A stretch of DNA of 41,305 nt from a virus. The notes beneath the pieces are model-generated. The model made no database searches. It saw only the letters and a list, made by a program, of their open reading frames with translations, and was not told the DNA's origin. Location: positions 1 to 41,305 of the IMG/VR virus record IMGVR_UViG_3300031507_000019, one strand, 5' to 3'. The position numbers were made by a program, and so were the translations under genes. The first letter of the stretch is position 1, and each line of letters opens with the position of its first letter. Of the stretch, positions 487 through 41,305 are shown one piece after another.

Positions 487-941
487 TACGCGCGCTCCCA
501 GAGCGGGGTGAATGACACGCGGACCAGCGGGCGCTGGTCGGCGACGATGCCGTCCACGTGCCGCTTGTTCGCGCCGCGGCGCTTCGGGCATTCGTCGGAC
601 CGCTCGCCCTCGTAGCCGTCGCAGTAGTTGCACACGCATCGGTAGGCGCTCCGCTGCACGATAGGCCCGAAGTCGCCGCGGTCTGCTCGGAGCAACGCGC
701 GGAGCAGCAACGCGAGACGCACCCGGAGGATGCGCGGCTGCTTCCACCCGCCGTCACCCCGACGACGCGGCAGAGCGTCGAGGATGTCATCGCAGACCGC
801 GTTGCCGAGCCAGAGCACGTCGCACGCGAAGTCGAGCGAGTCGGTCGCGTACGTGTCTTTGAGCGTCGCCGGGCGCGCGTGAATGAACGCCCGCAGCCAG
901 GACAGCGCGAGCGCCATAGCCTGTCGATCCATGCTCGTCAT
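486..941 (-). CDS. Hypothetical protein with Cys-rich segment, downstream of int
   Basis: 151 residues; no family recognised. The start ATG (941-939) overlaps the integrase stop by 4 bp (ATGA), so it is translationally coupled to int. The C-terminal third has a possible zinc-binding cluster (CVCNYC near residue 105, with another Cys about 13 residues on, followed by a basic RRGANKRH stretch). The N-terminal half looks helical. The gene belongs to the leftward early operon in the phage circle. It is beyond the attP core, so integration would move it to the opposite prophage end, away from the early promoter. Confidence 0.7.
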   Translation of the reverse strand: MTSMDRQAMALALSWLRAFIHARPATLKDTYATDSLDFACDVLWLGNAVCDDILDALPRRRGDGGWKQPRILRVRLALLLRALLRADRGDFGPIVQRSAYRCVCNYCDGYEGERSDECPKRRGANKRHVDGIVADQRPLVRVSFTPLWERA

Positions 942-2308
942 GCGCTCCTCGCTTCCGCCCGGCCCGGTTCCAGCGCATCGAGCAGCGCCTCGACCGACTC
1001 GACGAGATCCATCGCTCGGTGCGCCATCCAGCGGTCGCCGGTCGCGACGCTCTCGGCCGCGCGCATCGCCGCGCGCTCAACACGGGACACAGCACTGGAC
1101 ACGCCGAGCGAATCGGCCGCGATCTCTCGCGCAATCGGCCGCACCTCCACGCCTTCGTAAACCGTAGGTCCGGAGTTCAAATCTCCGAGGCGGCTTAGTG
1201 CGTGTGTCCCGTTTGTGTCCCGGTGGAAGAGCGAGGACACCGCATCCGAGCACAGGTGTGCGTAGCGCTGCGTGACCGCGATGTCGGCGTGCCCGAGCAA
1301 GTCGCGCAGCTCCTCGAGGCGCAGCGGCCGAGCGATCAGCCCCGGCGCCCACGTGCCCTGCAGCATGTGGCTCGCGAACGTGTGCCGCAGATCGTGGAAG
1401 CGAATGCGCCGCGTGATGCCGGTGACCTTGCGCAGCTTCGACCAATCGGCGTCGTACCCGTCCGCGTGGTAGCTGCCGTCGCGCCCCGGCCACACGAGCG
1501 CGAGGTGTGAGCGAATCTTCGCCGCGCGCGACATCGATCGCCACATGCGGATCGCGGCGAGCGCAGGCGCGAGTAGCGGCACCTCGCGCGGCTTGCCGCC
1601 CTTGGTCGCCTCGCCGCGTGACCATCGGACGTGCACGACGCTGCGCGCCTCGTCGACGTCTTCCCAGCGCAGCCCGCACAGCTCGCCCGCGCGCAGCCCG
1701 GTGAAGATCGCGAAGATGAAGAGCAACCGCGAGCGCATCGGCAGATCGACGCACGTCACGACCGCCTCGACCTCGTTCGCGCGCAGCCAGTCCCAGCCGT
1801 CGGCCTTCTTCGCCTTCGCGCGCTTGCCGATCTTGAGATCGGCGCACGGGTTCTGCAGACCGGGGCAGGGCCCCGTGCGCGCTGCAGCGGCCGTGAACGC
1901 CTGACGCAAGAGCCCGAGCGCGTTCTGCCGCGTCTGCGCGGCGAGGGCGCGCGTGGAGCCGAGCCACGTCTCGGCGAGCTCGGCAGTGACCTCCGTGAGC
2001 GCGAGGCGCCCAACGCGCGTCTCGGCGCCGAAGTGCTGCCGAAAGCGCGCGAGATCGCGCGAACGCGTGCCGGGGCGCACGTCGCGCGTTGGGATCCACC
2101 GCTCGCCCCAGGCCGCGAGCGACGGCACGGTGAGCGGAGCGAGCTCGAGCGCGTCGAGCGCCGCAGTGACGGCGGCTTCGGCCTCGCCGCGCGTGTCGAA
2201 CACGCCGACCGATGCGCGGCGATGCGCGTGCGGAAGGCGCCCACGGAAGCGCCCGCGGTGCTCGGTGACCGAGCCAGCGCCCCAGGGACGATCGGTTGCG
2301 TCGTTCAT
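938..2308 (-). CDS. int: Tyrosine-recombinase integrase
   Basis: 456 residues; site-specific recombinase for integration of the phage circle. The N-terminal part (about 1-150) contains an arm-binding-like segment and a SAM-like core-binding domain. The catalytic domain shows R206 (TGLRAGE), H305 and R308 (HDLRH), H340 (LLGHAD) and nucleophile Y349 (TQRYAH), so it looks active. The start ATG overlaps the upstream stop by 4 bp (ATGA). The frame continues for about 107 residues past the tyrosine. Residues near 372-386 are translated from the attP core (a tRNA 3' half in antisense), and a 70-residue tail follows. The stop is itself coupled (ATGA) to the next gene, so the long form is the real phage form. 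In a lysogen the tail would be replaced by whatever host DNA encodes. Confidence 0.93.
   Translation of the reverse strand: MNDATDRPWGAGSVTEHRGRFRGRLPHAHRRASVGVFDTRGEAEAAVTAALDALELAPLTVPSLAAWGERWIPTRDVRPGTRSRDLARFRQHFGAETRVGRLALTEVTAELAETWLGSTRALAAQTRQNALGLLRQAFTAAAARTGPCPGLQNPCADLKIGKRAKAKKADGWDWLRANEVEAVVTCVDLPMRSRLLFIFAIFTGLRAGELCGLRWEDVDEARSVVHVRWSRGEATKGGKPREVPLLAPALAAIRMWRSMSRAAKIRSHLALVWPGRDGSYHADGYDADWSKLRKVTGITRRIRFHDLRHTFASHMLQGTWAPGLIARPLRLEELRDLLGHADIAVTQRYAHLCSDAVSSLFHRDTNGTHALSRLGDLNSGPTVYEGVEVRPIAREIAADSLGVSSAVSRVERAAMRAAESVATGDRWMAHRAMDLVESVEALLDALEPGRAEARSA
1151..1197 (+). other. attP: attP core: 3' half of a tRNA-Thr(CGT) inside int
   Basis: Read on the + strand this is a tRNA from the anticodon loop to the discriminator. 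Loop TTCGTAA (1154-1160, anticodon CGT), 3' anticodon strand ACCGT (1161-1165), variable AGGTC, T stem CGGAG/CTCCG around loop TTCAAAT (1176-1182), acceptor strand AGGCGGC (1188-1194) and T at 1195. The 5' side of the anticodon stem does not pair, and no GCCGCCT acceptor strand lies upstream, so it is half a tRNA. This is the usual form of an attP that restores a host tRNA on integration. Its position next to the integrase catalytic region supports the call. The exact crossover point is not visible. Confidence 0.8.
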
Positions 2309-2532
2309 CTCGCGACCTTCCTTCTCAACCGCGCGACGGCGGCCTGCCCGCGCGCTCGCGCGACGTCGTCTACGGGCCCGCTGATCTGCTCGGCGAGCTT
2401 CGCCGCGAGCGCCGTCGACTTCACCCGACGCTGCCCCGGAAGCCGCTCGCCGCGCAAGCGGGCCTCGAGGCGCTCGCTCTCCTCGCGCACGATGGCGCGG
2501 ATCTGCGCGAGCGCGTCGGGGTCGAGGATCAT
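2305..2532 (-). CDS. Small helical hypothetical protein
   Basis: 75 residues, not recognised. The start ATG overlaps the preceding stop (ATGA at 2529-2532) and the stop overlaps the integrase start (ATGA at 2305-2308), which supports it as a real coupled gene. The composition is Arg/Ala/Glu rich and it is probably all helical (ILDPDALAQIRAIVREE near the start). Its place directly before int could suit an excisionase-like or other accessory role, but no winged-helix signature is visible and this remains a guess. Confidence 0.65.
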   Translation of the reverse strand: MILDPDALAQIRAIVREESERLEARLRGERLPGQRRVKSTALAAKLAEQISGPVDDVARARGQAAVARLRRKVAR

Positions 2533-2750
2533 CGCTCGCGCCCGTTCGCGAAGTTGTCGACGAGCTCGACGAGCAACTGCACACGACCGCGCAGCTTCCA
2601 CGTCTCCACGTTGTTCGCGTCGGCCACGCTCACGTTCGAGAGACGCACGGCGCTCTCCGACAGAAGCCGCGTCAGCCAGCGGAGCACACGGTCGCGCTTC
2701 ACGACGTGCGCCTCGGCGCGAACCTGCTCGACGGGTCGGCGGTCGCTCAT
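2529..2750 (-). CDS. Small hypothetical protein
   Basis: 73 residues, no family recognised. Bounded by ATGA overlaps with the methyltransferase stop (2747-2750) and the next start (2529-2532). The sequence is mixed charged and hydrophobic, with a central helix (RDRVLRWLTRLLSESAVRL) and a C-terminal helix ending NFANGRER. It is expressed with the methyltransferase and integrase as part of the leftward operon. Confidence 0.65.
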   Translation of the reverse strand: MSDRRPVEQVRAEAHVVKRDRVLRWLTRLLSESAVRLSNVSVADANNVETWKLRGRVQLLVELVDNFANGRER

Positions 2751-4090
2751 GCGGCGGCCTGCTGCGCCCAGCGCTTCGCAATGTCGCGCACCACGCGGTG
2801 CGGGTTCACGTCGAACACGTCCTCGCGGTAGTGGATCGACGCCGGGTGATTCGCGGCGTGCATGACGATCGCGGCCTCGTCGTGGTTGATCGCCGCGTCG
2901 GGCGAGCGGCCGAGCGCCTCCTCGACGCCCGTGCTCGTGCCGCCGCCGCCCGCGAACATGTCGACGAAGCCCTCGCCGTCGTCTAGCTCCAGATTCGCCG
3001 CGACGAGCGCGGCTGAGAACGGCGGCGGTACTGCGTTGCCGGCGAGCTTCGTCTGCGCGGTCGTGCCGATGGGCTTGCCGGCAGCCTCGAGACCGTCGAT
3101 CACGTAGTCGTCGGGGAAGCCCTGCGCGGCGAACAGCTCGGGCGGGATGAGCATCCGCGACTCGATGTCGACGATGCGGTACACCTCGCCGTCGATCGTG
3201 ACGAGCCCAACGTCGTCGCCGCTCGCACCGTGCGCGCGCAGTAGCTCGGCGACCTCGCGCGAGCGGTCGGCATGCTCCGGGCCCGCGAGCATCCGGGCGA
3301 CCGTCAGCGCGTGATGGTCCTTCGCGGTGATGGTGCCGAGCGGGCGATCGACGCGGTGCCCGATGACGCCACCGTAGTGCTTCGTGATGATGGGGCAGAT
3401 CAGGTGCTTGTCGTTCGTCGCGCAGACGGTCGCGAGCGGGATGTCGAGCGGCTGCCCGCGGAACGTGCCGGCGCCGCACCCCTCACGGAGCCCGGCCCCG
3501 GTGATCGTCGAGTAGTGCCCGTGGCGCACGATGAACGGCGACGGGTTGCGCGCCTCGACGACGAACCGACGCACGCCGATCGCGATGCGTGCGAGCGTGG
3601 CCGGCGCCGGCGAGCGCTTGCGACCGAAGATCGACGCGCCGCGAACATCCCATCGGATGCACTCCGCAGCGGTGCGATGCGGCCGCGCGAGGCCCGGCCC
3701 GTGCGACGCGCGCGGCCACGTGATGCGAGCGCCGTCGCAACGAGCCGCGACGAACAGACGCTTGCGCGACGTGGGCGCGCCGTAGTCGGCAGCGATGAGC
3801 GTGCTCCATTCGAGCTCGTAGCCGTGCGAGCGGAGCACGGCGCACCACCACGCGAACGTCTCGCCCTTGCGCGACTCGATCGGCCGGTCGTGCTCGTCGA
3901 GCGGGCCCCAGTCTAAGAACTCGGGCACGTTCTCGCAGAAGAACATCCGCGGGCGCACTTCGCTCGCCCATCGGTGGGCGACACTGGCGAGCGCGCGGAT
4001 GTTCTTCGCGAGCGGCTTCGCGCCCTTCGCACGCGAAAACTGCGTGCAGTCGGGCGAGAGCCACGCGCCGCCGATGCGGACTGCGCTCAC
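2747..4090 (-). CDS. C5-cytosine DNA methyltransferase, circularly permuted
   Basis: 447 residues from a GTG that overlaps the upstream stop (GTGA). It transfers a methyl group from SAM to cytosine C5 in DNA, probably protecting phage DNA. Motif order is unusual. Catalytic motif IV is at the extreme N terminus (SPDCTQFS, residues 12-19, Cys15). It is followed by motif VI (ENV, 53-55), VIII (RKRLF, 109-113), a long target-recognition stretch, IX-like (PELFAAQGFPDDY, near 310) and X (KLAGNAVPPP, from 348). SAM-binding motif I (FAGGGG, 379-384) is last, followed by a motif II-like INHD. In the usual order motif I comes first, so the chain is permuted with its ends between motifs III and IV. All key residues are present. 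No cognate restriction enzyme is seen nearby. Confidence 0.85.
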   Translation of the reverse strand: MSAVRIGGAWLSPDCTQFSRAKGAKPLAKNIRALASVAHRWASEVRPRMFFCENVPEFLDWGPLDEHDRPIESRKGETFAWWCAVLRSHGYELEWSTLIAADYGAPTSRKRLFVAARCDGARITWPRASHGPGLARPHRTAAECIRWDVRGASIFGRKRSPAPATLARIAIGVRRFVVEARNPSPFIVRHGHYSTITGAGLREGCGAGTFRGQPLDIPLATVCATNDKHLICPIITKHYGGVIGHRVDRPLGTITAKDHHALTVARMLAGPEHADRSREVAELLRAHGASGDDVGLVTIDGEVYRIVDIESRMLIPPELFAAQGFPDDYVIDGLEAAGKPIGTTAQTKLAGNAVPPPFSAALVAANLELDDGEGFVDMFAGGGGTSTGVEEALGRSPDAAINHDEAAIVMHAANHPASIHYREDVFDVNPHRVVRDIAKRWAQQAAA

Positions 4091-5583
4091 GTCCGCACTT
4101 CGGGGCGGTAGCTCGACGCGTCGAGCCCGTACGTCCAGGCGTTGGCCTCGAGCGCGGTGCGCATCGTCGGCGGCACCGGGATCGCGAACTGCCGACCGGT
4201 GCCGCAGCGCACGCGCAGGAAGCGCTCGCGCGGCGAGTCGGGCAGGTCGACCTCGATCAGCTCGCCGATCATCGGGTCGCTGTCCTTGTCGATCTGGCGC
4301 GGCTTGAGCGACGCGAGCACCTTGTCCCAGCCGAGGATCTCGGCGAGCGCACGGCGCTGCTCGATCTGGCGGTGCGTCAGCGCGAGCGACGGATCGATCG
4401 TGTGCTTCCGCTCGATCCACTCACCAGGGATGACCTGGCCATGCCACGAGTAGAGCCCCCAGCCGTCCGCGAACTGGATCGCGGGCCCGTGCTCTGCGTG
4501 CAGACGGCCATTGCCGTCGCGATGCAGGACCGTCGGCCGCTCCGAGACGATGACGAACTCGCGATGCGGCCACCACCAGCATCCCTCGGTCGCGTCCTCG
4601 GCCGCTTGCGTCTCTGCGACGGCGAGCGAGAGGCCGCAGCAGTCGCGGTAGTACGTCGCCCACGCCGCCGGCCACGAGGGCCACAGACAGCCGCCGAGGC
4701 GGTTGTACCAGCCGCGCGAGAGAGTGTCGTAGAACGCTCGGCGAAGCTGCGAGGCGAGATCGCCGCCCACCGCGCCGTGCACCGCGTCGCGCACCGCGCC
4801 GTGCACCGCGTCGCGCACCGCGCCGTGCACCGCGCCGTGCACCGCGTCGCCCACCGCGTCGCGCACCGCGCCGCCCACCGCGCCGTCCACCGCGTCGCGC
4901 ACCGCGCCGTGCACCGCGCCGTCCACCGCGCCGCCCACCGCGTCGCGCACCGCGTCGCGCACCGCGTCGCGCACCGCGCCGTCCACCGCGCCGCGCACCG
5001 CGCCGTCCACCGCGTCGCGCACCGCGCCGTGCACCGCGCCGCCCACCGCGCCGTCCACCGCGCCGCGCACCGCGCCGTCCACCGCGTCGCGCACCGCGCC
5101 GTGCACCGCGCCGTGCACCGCGCCGCCCACCGCGCCGTCCACCGCGCCGCGCACCGCGCCGTCCACCGCGTCGCGCACCGCGCCGTGCACCGCGCCGCCC
5201 ACCGCGCCGTCCACCGCGCCGCCCACCGCGTCGCGCACCGCGTCGCGCACCGCGTCGCGCACCGCGTCGCGCACCGCGTCGCGCACCGCGCCGTCCACCG
5301 CGTCGCCCACCGCGTCGCGCACCGCGCCGATCTTCCGATTTCGCAGCTCGAGCGTGAGCGCAGCGATCGGACCGGCGATCGAAACGACGAGCGGGCTCGT
5401 CGTCCACACGATCCGCTTGGGCGGCGGCAGCTTCGCCGCGGCGTAGTAGCCGAGGATCCCGCGCTCCATCTTCGCGCGGTCGGCCTTGCGCACCTCGAGC
5501 GCGCGAGCGATCCACGCGCGTGCGTGGGTGTGCATCGCCGCCTCTTGAGCCTCGGTCAACTTCGTGAGCAGTAGCTTCCCCAT
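4087..5583 (-). CDS. DUF6745-like protein with tetrapeptide-repeat insert
   Basis: 498 residues. The C-terminal part (about 280-498) matches my memory of the DUF6745 family: RPTVLHRDGNGRLHAEHGPA, then DGWGLYSWHGQVIP, and a closing segment with VPPTMRTALEANAW. The family name is recalled and unverified, and its biochemical function is unknown to me. The N-terminal 85 residues (DRAKMERGILGYY, then WTTSPLV) also fit that family. Between them, residues 86-273 are 47 copies of a four-residue unit, [G/D]-A-V-[R/D/G/H]. The start has a good RBS (AAGGAGA) 10 nt upstream. The stop overlaps the methyltransferase GTG. The repeat length may be mis-assembled. Related proteins in actinobacteria carry similar AV-rich stretches, as far as I recall. 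Confidence 0.8.
   Translation of the reverse strand: MGKLLLTKLTEAQEAAMHTHARAWIARALEVRKADRAKMERGILGYYAAAKLPPPKRIVWTTSPLVVSIAGPIAALTLELRNRKIGAVRDAVGDAVDGAVRDAVRDAVRDAVRDAVRDAVGGAVDGAVGGAVHGAVRDAVDGAVRGAVDGAVGGAVHGAVHGAVRDAVDGAVRGAVDGAVGGAVHGAVRDAVDGAVRGAVDGAVRDAVRDAVRDAVGGAVDGAVHGAVRDAVDGAVGGAVRDAVGDAVHGAVHGAVRDAVHGAVRDAVHGAVGGDLASQLRRAFYDTLSRGWYNRLGGCLWPSWPAAWATYYRDCCGLSLAVAETQAAEDATEGCWWWPHREFVIVSERPTVLHRDGNGRLHAEHGPAIQFADGWGLYSWHGQVIPGEWIERKHTIDPSLALTHRQIEQRRALAEILGWDKVLASLKPRQIDKDSDPMIGELIEVDLPDSPRERFLRVRCGTGRQFAIPVPPTMRTALEANAWTYGLDASSYRPEVRT
4765..5328 (-). repeat. Coding minisatellite, 47 x 12 bp
   Basis: The 12-bp unit on the coding strand is GRC GCG GTG SRC, with no indels. The Ala and Val codons are invariant. 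Only three base positions vary, giving Gly or Asp at position 1 and Arg, Asp, Gly or His at position 4. A higher-order block of 6-7 units (G, H, R, D, R, D at position 4) appears three times in succession near units 11-29, a sign of segmental duplication by slippage or unequal crossover. The array is longer than a short read, so the copy number is uncertain. Confidence 0.95.
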
Positions 5584-8485: not shown

Positions 8486-8778
8486 GCCACCCTCGCGAGC
8501 GACACGAGCGTGGCGAGGGTCGTGCCGACGTATCGGTGCGGCGAGTAGAGACGGCACGACGTGCACGAGCACCCGCTGCGCGAGTAGCCCCAGTCCGGTC
8601 GGCCCTCGACGCCAACGGGCTGCGCGAGATGGTGCTGCGCCTTGCGCGCGAGCACGAAGCGATGCCGGTAGTCGAGGAAGCCGCTCCACTTCCGCTGCGC
8701 CTCGCGCTCGTCGTTGTACTCACACTGGCGCTCGCGCGACGTCTGCGCGTACGTGCGCTGATAGTCGGCGTCGCTCAC
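8482..8778 (-). CDS. Small hypothetical protein, C-terminal Cys cluster
   Basis: 98 residues. The N-terminal half is highly charged (YQRTYAQTSRERQCEYNDER) and helical. The C-terminal half carries CSCTSC, a possible zinc or structural cysteine knuckle, followed by RLYSPHRYVGTTL. ATGA overlap with the gene upstream and GTGA overlap with the nuclease downstream support the call. Function unknown. Confidence 0.65.
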   Translation of the reverse strand: MSDADYQRTYAQTSRERQCEYNDEREAQRKWSGFLDYRHRFVLARKAQHHLAQPVGVEGRPDWGYSRSGCSCTSCRLYSPHRYVGTTLATLVSLARVA

Positions 8779-8954
8779 GACACCCTCGCTGCGAGCACGG
8801 CGAGGAACAGGTCGGCGGCGGCGTGGTTGCCGTCGTGCCGCGCGCGGTTCGCGCAGTCGAGCAGCTCCGCGTCCGAGAGCGCATGCGTCGTCGCGCCCGC
8901 GGCGAGAAGCAGCCAGCGGTTCGGCTTGGTCTCGGTGCTCGTCGTTGTGCCCAT
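8775..8954 (-). CDS. First gene of the leftward early operon, small hypothetical
   Basis: 59 residues from the ATG at 8954; a GTG at 8975 is an in-frame alternative. The start is about 36 nt from the predicted transcription start. The sequence (RWLLLAAGATTHALSDAELLDCANRARHDGNHAAADLFLAVL) looks like two or three helices. No family recognised. The stop overlaps the next ATG (ATGA). As the promoter-proximal gene of an immediate early operon it might be a host-takeover or regulatory protein, which is inference. Confidence 0.65.
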   Translation of the reverse strand: MGTTTSTETKPNRWLLLAAGATTHALSDAELLDCANRARHDGNHAAADLFLAVLAARVS

Positions 8955-8996: not shown

Positions 8997-9024
8997 ATGA
9001 TAGTCAACTATCGATAGCTGTCAA
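8997..9024 (-). promoter_or_regulatory. Leftward early promoter (PL-like)
   Basis: On the minus strand TTGACA (9024-9019) and TATCAT (9002-8997) are separated by 16 bp. That is a perfect -35 and a five-of-six -10 for a sigma-70-type factor, placing the start near 8990. Operator-like inverted repeats cover both boxes. It drives the exonuclease-to-integrase operon. Confidence 0.75.
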
Positions 9025-9026: not shown

Positions 9027-9064
9027 GGTGGACTGGCGAAAGTTTCCGCATCACGCTTGGAGCC

Positions 9065-9403
9065 ATGAAACAGGCCTCCGTGCTCGTGTGCGCAGTAGTG
9101 GTCCTCGCCGCGTGTGGATCCGGAGGCCACGCAGACTTCCTTGCGTCGTGCGCTGCGGCCTCGGATGCGGGCATGCACGCGTGCTCGAGCGGGCTCGCAT
9201 GCAACGCGTCCGGCGAATGCGCGATCCCGTGCGCGTCAGATCTGGATTGCCAGACGATGCAGCGCGGTGGCGCGGCGGCGCATCCGGGCAGTTCGTGCAG
9301 CCCTCAGCATGGATGCTTACTGCTGTGTGCGAGCGGCGACGATTGCCCGAGCGGGTTCGCGTGCGGCATGCCGCCCACGTTCACGCACCGCGTCTGCTTC
9401 TAG
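9065..9403 (+). CDS. Secreted Cys-rich lipoprotein, likely lysogenic-conversion gene
   Basis: 112 residues. A signal peptide (Lys2, then hydrophobic 4-16) ends in lipobox LAAC with Cys17, so it should be a lipid-anchored envelope protein. The mature part has 12 further cysteines, an even number, in short CSSGLAC, CASDLDC and CASGDDC blocks like the disulfide-rich lipoproteins common in Myxococcota. It is oriented against the repressor and early operon, between the two. That is the typical place of a moron expressed from the prophage. GGAG precedes the ATG at short spacing. Roles in superinfection exclusion or host surface change are inference. Its stop shares CTAG with the repressor's stop. 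Confidence 0.8.
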   Translation: MKQASVLVCAVVVLAACGSGGHADFLASCAAASDAGMHACSSGLACNASGECAIPCASDLDCQTMQRGGAAAHPGSSCSPQHGCLLLCASGDDCPSGFACGMPPTFTHRVCF

Positions 9404-9840
9404 ATCGCCTTGGGCCGCGCTGCGATGTGACCTTCCGCGATGGCGAGCCACGCCGACATCGGCGGGTTCGAGCCGTCGGGGAAGGGTGTTGCCATCACGC
9501 GCACGATCTCGTCGGGCGTGAGCGACTTGTAGACGGTCGTCTTCTTGAAACCGTCCCAGCCCTCTCCCGTTGGCTCATGCTTCTCATAGATCCCCCGCAG
9601 CTCGTCGATGCTCATAGAGAACACACGAGCGATCGCCGCGAGGTTCGGGAGCTCGGGCACTGACCCGTCGTTCTTCCCGTCGCCCGGCGGCTTTCTCCAT
9701 CGCTTCGCCGCTGCCCACGTGACGCCCGCAGCCTTGGCAAGCTGCGTCGTGGTGACGTGCTTCTCTCTCGCCAATCTGTCGATGCGCTTCCACAGCGGTT
9801 CTGCCTCGTGCTGCGGAGCAGACGATCGATGCGCGTCCAT
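9400..9840 (-). CDS. Short HTH repressor (CI-like)
   Basis: 146 residues from ATG 9840. A lambda-repressor-like HTH spans about 16-75 (WKRIDRLAREKHVTTTQLAKAAGV, then WAAAKRWRK and ELPNLAAIARVFSMSIDELRGIY). The C-terminal 70 residues (GWDGFKKTTVYKSLTPDEIV) are not a LexA-type peptidase, so induction would not follow the usual self-cleavage route. A GTG start at 9918 is possible, but the added residues look noncoding. Divergent from the YdaS/Cro-like gene and flanked by operator-like repeats, it is the best candidate for the lysogeny repressor. Confidence 0.75.
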   Translation of the reverse strand: MDAHRSSAPQHEAEPLWKRIDRLAREKHVTTTQLAKAAGVTWAAAKRWRKPPGDGKNDGSVPELPNLAAIARVFSMSIDELRGIYEKHEPTGEGWDGFKKTTVYKSLTPDEIVRVMATPFPDGSNPPMSAWLAIAEGHIAARPKAI

Positions 9841-9925
9841 ACTGACGCTGAGCCTGCTCGGGCCGCTGGAAGGCCGCAATCCATAGGCGACAGGTGTACC
9901 ACGCGACGCGGTTAGCACGGCGAGC

Positions 9926-9955
9926 TTGACTGCGGTATAGATAGTCGGCTACAAC
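9926..9955 (+). promoter_or_regulatory. Rightward early promoter with operator-like site
   Basis: TTGACT (9926-9931) and TACAAC (9950-9955) are spaced 18 bp apart and point to the Cro-like gene. The predicted start falls almost on its ATG at 9961, so the mRNA may be leaderless. An operator-like GATAGTCGGCTACA (9940-9953; 10 of 14 match to the site at 8999) overlaps the -10. Confidence 0.5.
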
Positions 9956-9960
9956 CCGGC

Positions 9961-10221
9961 ATGATGACGAAGCGCGTTCCGGGTCGCGGCGTCTCTGCCG
10001 CAGAGAAGAAGAGGCGCTCCGCTCCGCTCCGCGAGTGGTGCGCGAAGTTCGGTCGCGGAGCGATCACGCACCTCACCGACGAGACAGGCCTCACATTCGC
10101 CGCTGCGTCGCGAATCGTGCACGGGTCTGCGGCGCCGCGGCCCGAAACCGCAGCGAAGATCGAACGCGCCACGGGCGGCGCTGTGCGTGCGGCTGCTCTC
10201 GTCGGCCTCGAGGCGGCATGA
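9961..10221 (+). CDS. YdaS/Cro-like HTH regulator
   Basis: 86 residues (ATG 9961, or 9964). A basic N terminus is followed by an HTH with the pattern WCAKFGRGAITHLTDETGL, then FAAASRIVHG, and a PRPETAAKIERATGGAVRAAAL end. This is the typical layout of YdaS/Cro-like phage regulators. It is the first gene of the rightward operon and divergent from the repressor. Likely represses repressor synthesis or tunes early promoters. No Shine-Dalgarno is visible, consistent with a leaderless mRNA. Confidence 0.75.
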   Translation: MMTKRVPGRGVSAAEKKRRSAPLREWCAKFGRGAITHLTDETGLTFAAASRIVHGSAAPRPETAAKIERATGGAVRAAALVGLEAA

Positions 10222-39752: not shown

Positions 39753-40429
39753 AGAAGTGGAGCGAGTGGATCAGGACGTGGACGGTGCCGCAGGCGCTCG
39801 TCGTGGGCTTCGGAATGCTCTGCGTGACCGCGATGAGCATCACGATCACGCTGCACGACGACTGGGGCCGTCTCGTGCGCTGGCTCGCGCATCCCGAGTC
39901 GATGGCGCTCGTCGGCGGCATCGTGCTGTGGGCGATCGGCCTCTACCACCGCGCGCTCAAGACGCCGGTCACGATGCTGCTCGTCGTCTGTCTCGGCGGC
40001 TCGCTGCTCTCGGGTTGCGGCGCGTCTGCGCTCGTGATGCAGGGTCGCGCCGCGACGATCGTCGGCGTCGGCCTCGGCAGCATCGGCCAGGAGGTGCACG
40101 ACCAGCGCGCACGCGCCCTCGACGCGTGCGACGCCGATGCCGTCCCGACGCAGTGCGAGGCCGAGCAGGCGAGCGTGTGGGCGCCCGCAGTGGCCGCGTA
40201 CGAGTCGGCGCGCGCTGCGCTCTCGACGTGGATCGAGGCGCTCTCTGTCGCGCGTGAGGCCGGCGCCGACGACGGCGACGTGCTCAGCGCTCTCTTCGTG
40301 GCTGTCGCGCGCCTCGCTCGGCAGTGGAACGCGCTCGCCGCGGCGCTCCGTGGCGTCGGCGTCGAGGTGCCGGACTTGCCACCCTCGCTGGCGGCGCTCC
40401 TCGCCGCAGCATCCGGCGCGACGTCGTGA
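39749..40429 (+). CDS. Holin-like membrane protein with internal lipobox
   Basis: 226 residues. TM1 (about 13-34) and TM2 (about 51-67) lie in the first 70 residues, as in small holins. The third hydrophobic stretch ends LLSGC (Cys90), a fair lipobox, and an in-frame ATG at 39974 (residue 76) lies just before it. The last 136 residues are soluble and helical (VAAYESARAALSTWIEALS). Either one fused protein, or a nested short form secreted as a lipoprotein (outer-spanin-like). No RBS is seen before the inner ATG. Confidence 0.62.
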   Translation: MKKWSEWIRTWTVPQALVVGFGMLCVTAMSITITLHDDWGRLVRWLAHPESMALVGGIVLWAIGLYHRALKTPVTMLLVVCLGGSLLSGCGASALVMQGRAATIVGVGLGSIGQEVHDQRARALDACDADAVPTQCEAEQASVWAPAVAAYESARAALSTWIEALSVAREAGADDGDVLSALFVAVARLARQWNALAAALRGVGVEVPDLPPSLAALLAAASGATS

Positions 40430-40833: not shown

Positions 40834-41305
40834 ATGAGCGACGCGACCATCGCGCAGCAGACCGGCATCCCGCTGCCGTTCGTCGCCGGCATCCGCGCCA
40901 CCGAGAGCGGCGGCAACAGCCACGCGCTGCGCTTCGAGCCGCACCTGTTCCGGCGCTACCACGCCGACTGCGTGCGCGTGCTGCATCCGACCGAGGGCGC
41001 TGCGTTCGTCACCGGCGACGAGGAGCGCCGCGAGGCGTGGGCGCGCGGCCTCGTGCCGTACACACCCGGCAAGGACCGCGCGGCGAGCTCCAGCGCGCTG
41101 GAGACCGGCCGCGAGGCGATGGAGCACGCGATGCGCATCGACGGCAATGCCGCGATCCGCTCGACGAGCTTCGGCAGCTTTCAGGTGCTGGGTGCGCACC
41201 TGCTGCCCTTCGGCGCCACGCCGGAGGCCGCGCTCGCGGTGTTCGACGCGGCGCCGCAGAGCGTCTCGGACGAGCTGCTCGTGCGCTGGCTGCGCGCGAA
41301 CACGC
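40834..41305 (+). CDS. Endolysin, N-acetylmuramidase family (N-terminal part)
   Basis: The gene starts at ATG 40834 and continues at base 1 after the end overlap, giving 201 residues. The N-terminal segment IRATESGGN has the likely catalytic Glu24, followed by RFEPHLFRRYHAD and AIRSTSFGSFQVLG, motifs of the N-acetylmuramidase (formerly DUF3380) family. Cleaves the MurNAc-GlcNAc bond of peptidoglycan for lysis. No signal peptide or SAR segment is visible, so release would need the holin. Confidence 0.85.
   Translation, partial: MSDATIAQQTGIPLPFVAGIRATESGGNSHALRFEPHLFRRYHADCVRVLHPTEGAAFVTGDEERREAWARGLVPYTPGKDRAASSSALETGREAMEHAMRIDGNAAIRSTSFGSFQVLGAHLLPFGATPEAALAVFDAAPQSVSDELLVRWLRANT
41179..41305. 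repeat. Terminal direct repeat, copy 2 (circular-assembly overlap)
   Basis: Exact copy of bases 1-127 at the end of the window. Collapsing it restores an unbroken endolysin frame and a circle of 41,178 bp. Confidence 0.9.

Follow-up and report, generated by a model that had tools for sequence, protein, structure and literature searches.

In the immunity region of a phage that carries an integrase, we identified a small gene for a cysteine-rich lipoprotein (P0001) that is a phage moron, i.e., a piece of accessory cargo: it lies inside the phage, both of its neighbors are on the other strand, and its composition is odd. As a predicted role, argued by analogy and held at a probability of about 0.4, we propose that P0001 keeps other phages out by attaching to or masking a receptor at the cell surface. 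The preliminary description of this DNA had already read the gene as envelope cargo, and that reading fits: P0001 is a lipoprotein by sequence, its gene sits in the immunity region of a phage with an integrase, and lipoproteins of similar build occur in other phages.

The window, i.e., the whole stretch of DNA that was analyzed, is a 41,305-base virus record with 70% GC. Its ends (1-127 and 41179-41305) are identical over 127 bp, so that it probably represents the complete genome (41,178 bp), closed where the assembly overlaps. Among its genes are those for an integrase, DNA methyltransferases, a Sak4-like protein, helicases, and the terminase, portal, and capsid, and this set identifies a temperate tailed phage. 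Given the identical ends and the integrase, the lipoprotein gene lies inside a whole temperate phage and not in host flank.

938 to 2584, minus strand: tyrosine integrase (phrog_1, E = 3.5e-57)

The host is probably a soil bacterium. The phage collection held no close relative of the phage, and searches of viral contigs with the repressor and the terminase returned no close relatives. Relatives of the Sak4-like protein in viral contigs reached about 34-43% identity at best; no lipoprotein comparable to P0001 was found near them, and an ORF flagged near one of them (L082) appears to be a spurious frame. Elsewhere in the window, the minus-strand gene at 4087-5583 weakly matches a PADLOC model for type II nicking endonucleases (REase_II, E = 4.3e-06) and adjoins the DNA methyltransferase gene at 2747-4420, and the two may form a phage restriction-modification pair.

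The lipoprotein ORF runs on the plus strand from an ATG at 9065 to a TAG at 9403, exactly where the preliminary description had placed it, and encodes 112 amino acids (aa). Its features are as follows.

9059 to 9062, plus strand: GGAG, possible ribosome-binding site of the lipoprotein gene, just 2 nt from the ATG (direct reading)
9065 to 9403, plus strand: coding sequence of the Cys-rich lipoprotein P0001, 112 aa, 14 Cys (lipobox ORF; module profile, 43.5 bits)
9065 to 9112, plus strand: signal peptide MKQASVLVCAVVVLAA, with Lys2, a hydrophobic core, and LAA before the lipid Cys (direct reading)
9113 to 9115, plus strand: Cys17, predicted to be lipidated (+1), with Gly at +2 and Ala at +7 (direct reading)
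9149 to 9220, plus strand: four-Cys module 1 (C29, C40, C46, C52); residues 40-52 match the profile at 12.7 bits
9230 to 9316, plus strand: four-Cys module 2 (C56, C62, C78, C84), delimited by Cys spacing; weak profile match
9326 to 9397, plus strand: four-Cys module 3 (C88, C94, C100, C111); residues 88-101 match the profile at 20.7 bits

Across the predicted cleavage site, P0001 reads MKQASVLVCAVVVLAA followed by CGSGGHADFLASC..., with a VLAAC lipobox (LAA before C17), Lys at residue 2, and a hydrophobic stretch of 12 residues. The charged n-region, hydrophobic core, and lipobox ending in Cys by which bacterial lipoproteins are recognized are thus all present, as judged from the sequence. 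The 14 Cys comprise C9 in the signal peptide, the lipidated C17, and 12 more at positions 29, 40, 46, 52, 56, 62, 78, 84, 88, 94, 100, and 111, so that the LAAC lipobox and the 12 mature cysteines claimed previously are both borne out, with the 12 counted after C17. The 12 fall into three groups of four, spaced C-x10-C-x5-C-x5-C-x3 / C-x5-C-x15-C-x5-C-x3 / C-x5-C-x5-C-x10-C, in which the recurring grammar is C-x5-C-x5-C-x5-C-x3 with single longer loops. In module 2, only the CASDLDC start matches the profile, and weakly (4.2 bits). A direct repeat at the DNA level (D1; 37 nt, 73% identity) links modules 1 and 3, and the modules may therefore be partly duplicates of each other. The spacing of the GGAG is a weak point of the gene, as it lies too near the ATG for a good Shine-Dalgarno sequence.

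As spurious ORFs are plentiful in this genome of 70% GC (274 of at least 60 aa), we put a chance origin of ORF 9065-9403 to the test. In 60 random second-order Markov windows matched in composition to the real window, lipobox ORFs occurred at 0.017 per window and none had at least 10 Cys; the real window contains a single ORF of 80 aa or more with a strict lipobox, namely, this one, with 13 mature Cys (C17 plus the 12 after it). Further, we built a profile of the module from 45 four-Cys units of other loci, none of them from this window, and compared the score of P0001 with those of 1998 shuffles of P0001 in which every Cys was fixed in place. P0001 scored 43.5 bits, whereas the best of the shuffles scored 23.8; P0001 is therefore not merely Cys-rich, as other conserved positions fit the profile too. 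The Cys-richness pointed out earlier exceeds chance, as do the lipobox and Cys modules by these two tests, and the Cys-rich lipoprotein ORF is more than a product of chance. Its frame tops all six frames for phage codon usage, yet at −0.15 bits/codon it falls below the core genes (about +0.2 to +0.3), which marks the composition of the gene as atypical, as that of cargo would be.

The gene occupies the gap between a leftward early promoter and a repressor gene, on the strand opposite to both, in the following setting.

8775 to 8954, minus strand: small gene (59 aa) that opens the leftward operon, with GGGAGA ahead of its ATG and a coding score of +0.25 bits/codon
8997 to 9024, minus strand: leftward early promoter (PL-like), sigma-70 type, TTGACA-16-TATCAT (11/12 matches)
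8999 to 9012, no strand assigned: palindromic operator-like site GATAGTCAACTATC, over the spacer and −10 of the leftward promoter
9400 to 9918, minus strand: helix-turn-helix (HTH) repressor, probably starting at an ATG near 9840 (HTH_26 of Pfam, E = 9.6e-06, above the cut-off; weak matches to PHROG repressors)
9926 to 9955, plus strand: rightward early promoter (PR-like), TTGACT-18-TACAAC, with GATAGTC in the spacer (9/12 matches)
9961 to 10221, plus strand: Cro-like HTH protein (weak; HTH_3, E = 0.0012, below the cut-off; phrog_35, E = 0.0014)

The leftward promoter, a strong one, runs from 9024 to 8997 and was the only one found in a search in which 0.1 was expected. The site GATAGTCAACTATC is an inverted repeat, and the window has no more than three occurrences of GATAGTC, two of which fall at the early promoters; judged by this placement, these sites are candidate operators of the repressor. 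The location claimed in the preliminary description, convergent with the repressor and divergent from the early promoter, is indeed what we see, the promoter being the leftward one: the repressor and lipoprotein genes converge, with their stop codons overlapping in the CTAG at 9400-9403. Because it is on the opposite strand, the lipoprotein gene cannot be cotranscribed with the repressor, and its transcript must start between about 8955 and 9065. A scan for sigma-70-type promoters recognized none for the gene on the plus strand (best upstream match, 7/12), and no terminator was recognized at its end, so that the promoter and terminator of its own that are characteristic of a moron did not emerge from the sigma-70 promoter and terminator scan. 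With an early operator just upstream, the gene may be repressed in lysogens; the repressor could turn it off, favor it, or have no effect, and expression in lysogens is possible.

Lipoproteins resembling P0001 were sought by Cys-motif pattern scans of viral contigs, in which the same pattern matched the window once. Short lipoproteins of the P0001 build were found in three other phage contigs (L002, L094, and L106).

4901 to 5296 of L002, minus strand: lipoprotein MRVILVGMLMVLAAC..., 131 aa, 17 mature Cys, four four-Cys modules
13568 to 13795 of L094, convergent with a gene in the contractile-tail region: lipoprotein, 75 aa
7597 to 8001 of L106, same strand as its neighbors, in the replication region: lipoprotein, 134 aa

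L002 is a 65.7-kb contig with an integrase, and its lipoprotein gene sits on the opposite strand between a tail-fiber-like gene (weak PHROG match, E = 0.0023) and an endolysin gene. In both L002 and L094, the lipoprotein gene converges on tail genes of the other strand, the stop codons overlapping by 4 bp as they do here; the overlaps in L002, L094, and the window are CTAG, TTAG, and CTAG, respectively, a common feature that may be a coincidence in compact genomes. The layout in these three is what one sees when accessory genes are inserted between modules. As the copy in L106 is in yet another place, position does not point to one function; the same build in unrelated phages does fit P0001 as a phage-carried envelope cargo gene. 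The four-Cys module itself is common to P0001 and other virus-borne Cys-rich proteins, P0001 scoring above its Cys-preserving shuffles on the profile. A looser motif without the Asp positions yielded mostly antisense Cys-rich frames and no further lipoprotein among the matches listed.

Several other matches were set aside. L105 is lipoprotein-like and lies at a contig edge, possibly in host flank. L003-L006 and L095-L098 match the motifs, mostly through Cys-rich proteins of very large size that are not lipoproteins; those of L003, L004, L005, L006, L095, L096, and L098 are about 700 to over 2000 aa long and contain dozens to >200 Cys in similar four-Cys modules, and several of them have a common N terminus like SERNDILADLLRVQNEIRELEQDQ. 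A recurrent protein with the conserved Cys-rich stretch EMYDVVEKGLTEGKDCNCGPDCACKGNCGDDCNCGPDC was also seen in L111, L116, L130, L148, L177, and other low-GC virus contigs.

Searches with P0001 itself returned no close relatives in viral contigs, genome contigs, phages, or plasmids. An exact-peptide scan of the genome contigs, which excludes only close relatives, gave no match, nor did tblastn in the phages. There was no family match of note in Pfam, PHROG, NCBIfam, or PADLOC; the only Pfam hit was WAP, at E = 7.7. The Dickkopf_N (PF04706) and DUF7107 (PF23416) families have a four-Cys grammar like that of P0001 (of the kind C-x2-D-x-D-C-x2-G-x2-C), and the L002 lipoprotein has subthreshold matches to such modules; P0001 did not match either family even at E ≤ 10, the gathering score not being reached. 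An AlphaFold model of P0001 from four sequences had a mean pLDDT of 62.6, with values of about 70-80 only in the second half. Foldseek searches with this model gave nothing significant: the first hits, all with E values above 1, were Dkk1 and knottins over about 25 residues, with Dkk1 on top (25 residues, E = 1.4). These top matches would agree with small disulfide knobs and prove nothing. In the literature searched, we found no description of a phage lipoprotein made of repeated four-Cys modules.

To our knowledge, the small phage lipoproteins of known role act at the envelope against other phages. If P0001 does likewise, it would be exported through Sec and lipidated on Cys17 and then carried outward, since the Gly at +2 is no known retention signal. 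In the oxidizing envelope, the remaining 12 Cys would form six disulfides, giving three four-Cys knobs that resemble Dickkopf modules or knottins. Acting at the outer membrane or the host surface, the protein would bind or cover a structure that serves phages as a receptor, and cells carrying or making the phage would thereby be closed to superinfection, in a manner like that of Ltp, Llp, or Cor on an unrelated scaffold. Each of these elements, from export, lipidation, and disulfides to expression in lysogens, exclusion, its timing, and its target, is what we infer for P0001.

A precedent in location is Ltp of Streptococcus thermophilus phage TP-J34, a lipoprotein of the lysogeny module that is transcribed in the prophage and excludes superinfecting phages (PMC3952083). 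Like the P0001 gene, ltp is small and belongs to a temperate phage's lysogeny region (PMC3952083); the two differ in that ltp has the orientation of the repressor and a Gram-positive host, whereas the P0001 gene is antisense to the repressor and its product is Cys-rich. In Gram-negative envelopes, Llp of T5 and Cor of phi80, N15, and T1 are small phage-encoded outer membrane lipoproteins with an intramolecular disulfide; Llp blocks FhuA on its periplasmic face, and llp adjoins the gene for the receptor-binding protein (PMC9586334). For these, one intramolecular disulfide has been described, compared with the six proposed in P0001, and the P0001 gene, unlike llp, does not adjoin a receptor-binding gene. 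Searches of Pfam, PHROG, NCBIfam, and PADLOC and tblastn in phages, as distinct from direct alignment, revealed no sequence relation of P0001 to Ltp, Llp, or Cor. Hence, we do not file P0001 as a member of any of them; by analogy, it may work in a like way. The Ltp-like site of P0001, together with the roughly Llp-like sites of the L002 and L094 genes, favors superinfection exclusion. Against it stand the lack of a family or fold match, the antisense orientation to the repressor, the lack of a recognized sigma-70 promoter, the poor Shine-Dalgarno spacing, a position that is not beside a receptor-binding gene, and the fact that proteins with quite different roles contain Cys-rich modules.

The main rival to phage exclusion is a surface change that benefits the host, i.e., lysogenic conversion by a surface or matrix lipoprotein that alters adhesion, matrix, or cell-cell behavior and was captured from a host with many such proteins in its own envelope, which we regard as a serious if rather unlikely reading. 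In M. xanthus, inner membrane lipoproteins are marked by Lys at +2 and matrix lipoproteins by Ala at +7, a sorting pattern tested there by mutagenesis of FibA (PMC3222651), and P0001, with Ala at +7 and no Lys at +2, has the matrix-sorting pattern, as regards Ala +7 shared by L002; similar four-Cys modules also occur in large extracellular-type proteins. However, Ala at +7, found in 2 of the 4 Cys-rich phage lipoproteins (P0001 and L002), is common by chance at 70% GC, and no host homologue is in hand. The Gly +2/Ala +7 pattern has, moreover, no bearing unless the host is a myxobacterium, and genomes of that kind encode Ala frequently.

It is improbable that the gene is a recently captured passenger with no selected function in the phage. 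The atypical codon score, the weak ribosome-binding site, the lack of a visible promoter, and the lack of close relatives in any collection searched would all suit such a passenger, but neither the reading frame nor any of the three modules is disrupted, and this integrity, together with the recurrence of the build in three other phages, suggests selection.

Three further readings are unlikely. For a toxin-like lipoprotein passed to neighboring cells in the manner of SitA, to which we give only a small chance, the precedent is a set of lipoproteins encoded, like P0001, by prophages (the Mx-alpha prophages of M. xanthus) and transferred by outer membrane exchange (PMC5562445), and the weak fold matches of the P0001 model include knottin toxins. 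However, SitA proteins are large, with toxin domains and immunity genes (SitA1, at about 62 kDa, has a nuclease domain, and its immunity gene is adjacent), whereas P0001 has 112 aa and none of these features; it has no match to the SitA family (NCBIfam, TIGR02269), and there is no second gene on its strand. A chance ORF in GC-rich DNA, and hence no gene at all, would account for the weak codon score amid many spurious ORFs and recalls the antisense Cys-rich ORFs common in the looser motif scan, but the random-window and Cys-fixed shuffle tests make it very improbable. Least probable is a lysis protein, namely, an outer membrane spanin: spanins are small phage lipoproteins, but P0001 is Cys-rich instead of proline-rich, its gene belongs to the immunity region, flanked by the early leftward operon and the repressor, and not to a lysis cassette with an inner membrane partner, and another lipoprotein gene, at 39974-40429, is better placed for that role. 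The latter, on the plus strand past the structural genes, encodes a second putative lipoprotein, MLLVVCLGGSLLSGC..., of about 151 aa, which has no NCBIfam match and may be a lysis protein.

Small phage lipoproteins that alter the cell surface are already known from enterobacteria and streptococci. The presence of a four-Cys lipoprotein gene at different genome places in four phages suggests a type of cargo that annotation pipelines overlook for want of a library model, and if phage exclusion by P0001 is true, it would supply a short, testable phage-resistance gene for bacteria whose phages are little studied. A bolder idea, to which we assign a very low probability, is that phages of social, myxobacteria-like hosts carry recurrent disulfide-rich lipoproteins that are sorted to the surface or matrix (Ala +7) and shared between cells, extending exclusion or surface change to prophage-free neighbors; if so, the sharing would proceed via the matrix or outer membrane exchange.

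As for the host, the capture from Myxococcota put forward in the preliminary description is a suggestion from cysteine-block style. The 70% GC of the genome, the Ala at +7, and a DNA methyltransferase of the phage that is 38% identical to one of Myxococcus phage Mx4 bear on it only indirectly, the last being a slight hint. To check on hosts, we read the Myxococcus phages Mx8, Mx9, and Mx4 (the first 50 kb of Mx4; the last 3.5 kb of Mx9 by annotation only). Beside tail genes and on the other strand, Mx8 (Mx8p59) and Mx4 (L228:40560-40964, minus strand) each carry a gene for a small lipoprotein. These genes resemble that of P0001 as small cargo on the strand opposite to their neighbors; they differ in lying beside tail genes and not the repressor, and their products are not Cys-rich (1 and 3 mature Cys, respectively). 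The Mx8p59 and Mx4 lipoproteins are weakly alike (28.5 bits, versus ≤24.3 in shuffles). The Mx4 gene is unannotated, two small plus-strand ORFs being annotated over the same stretch.
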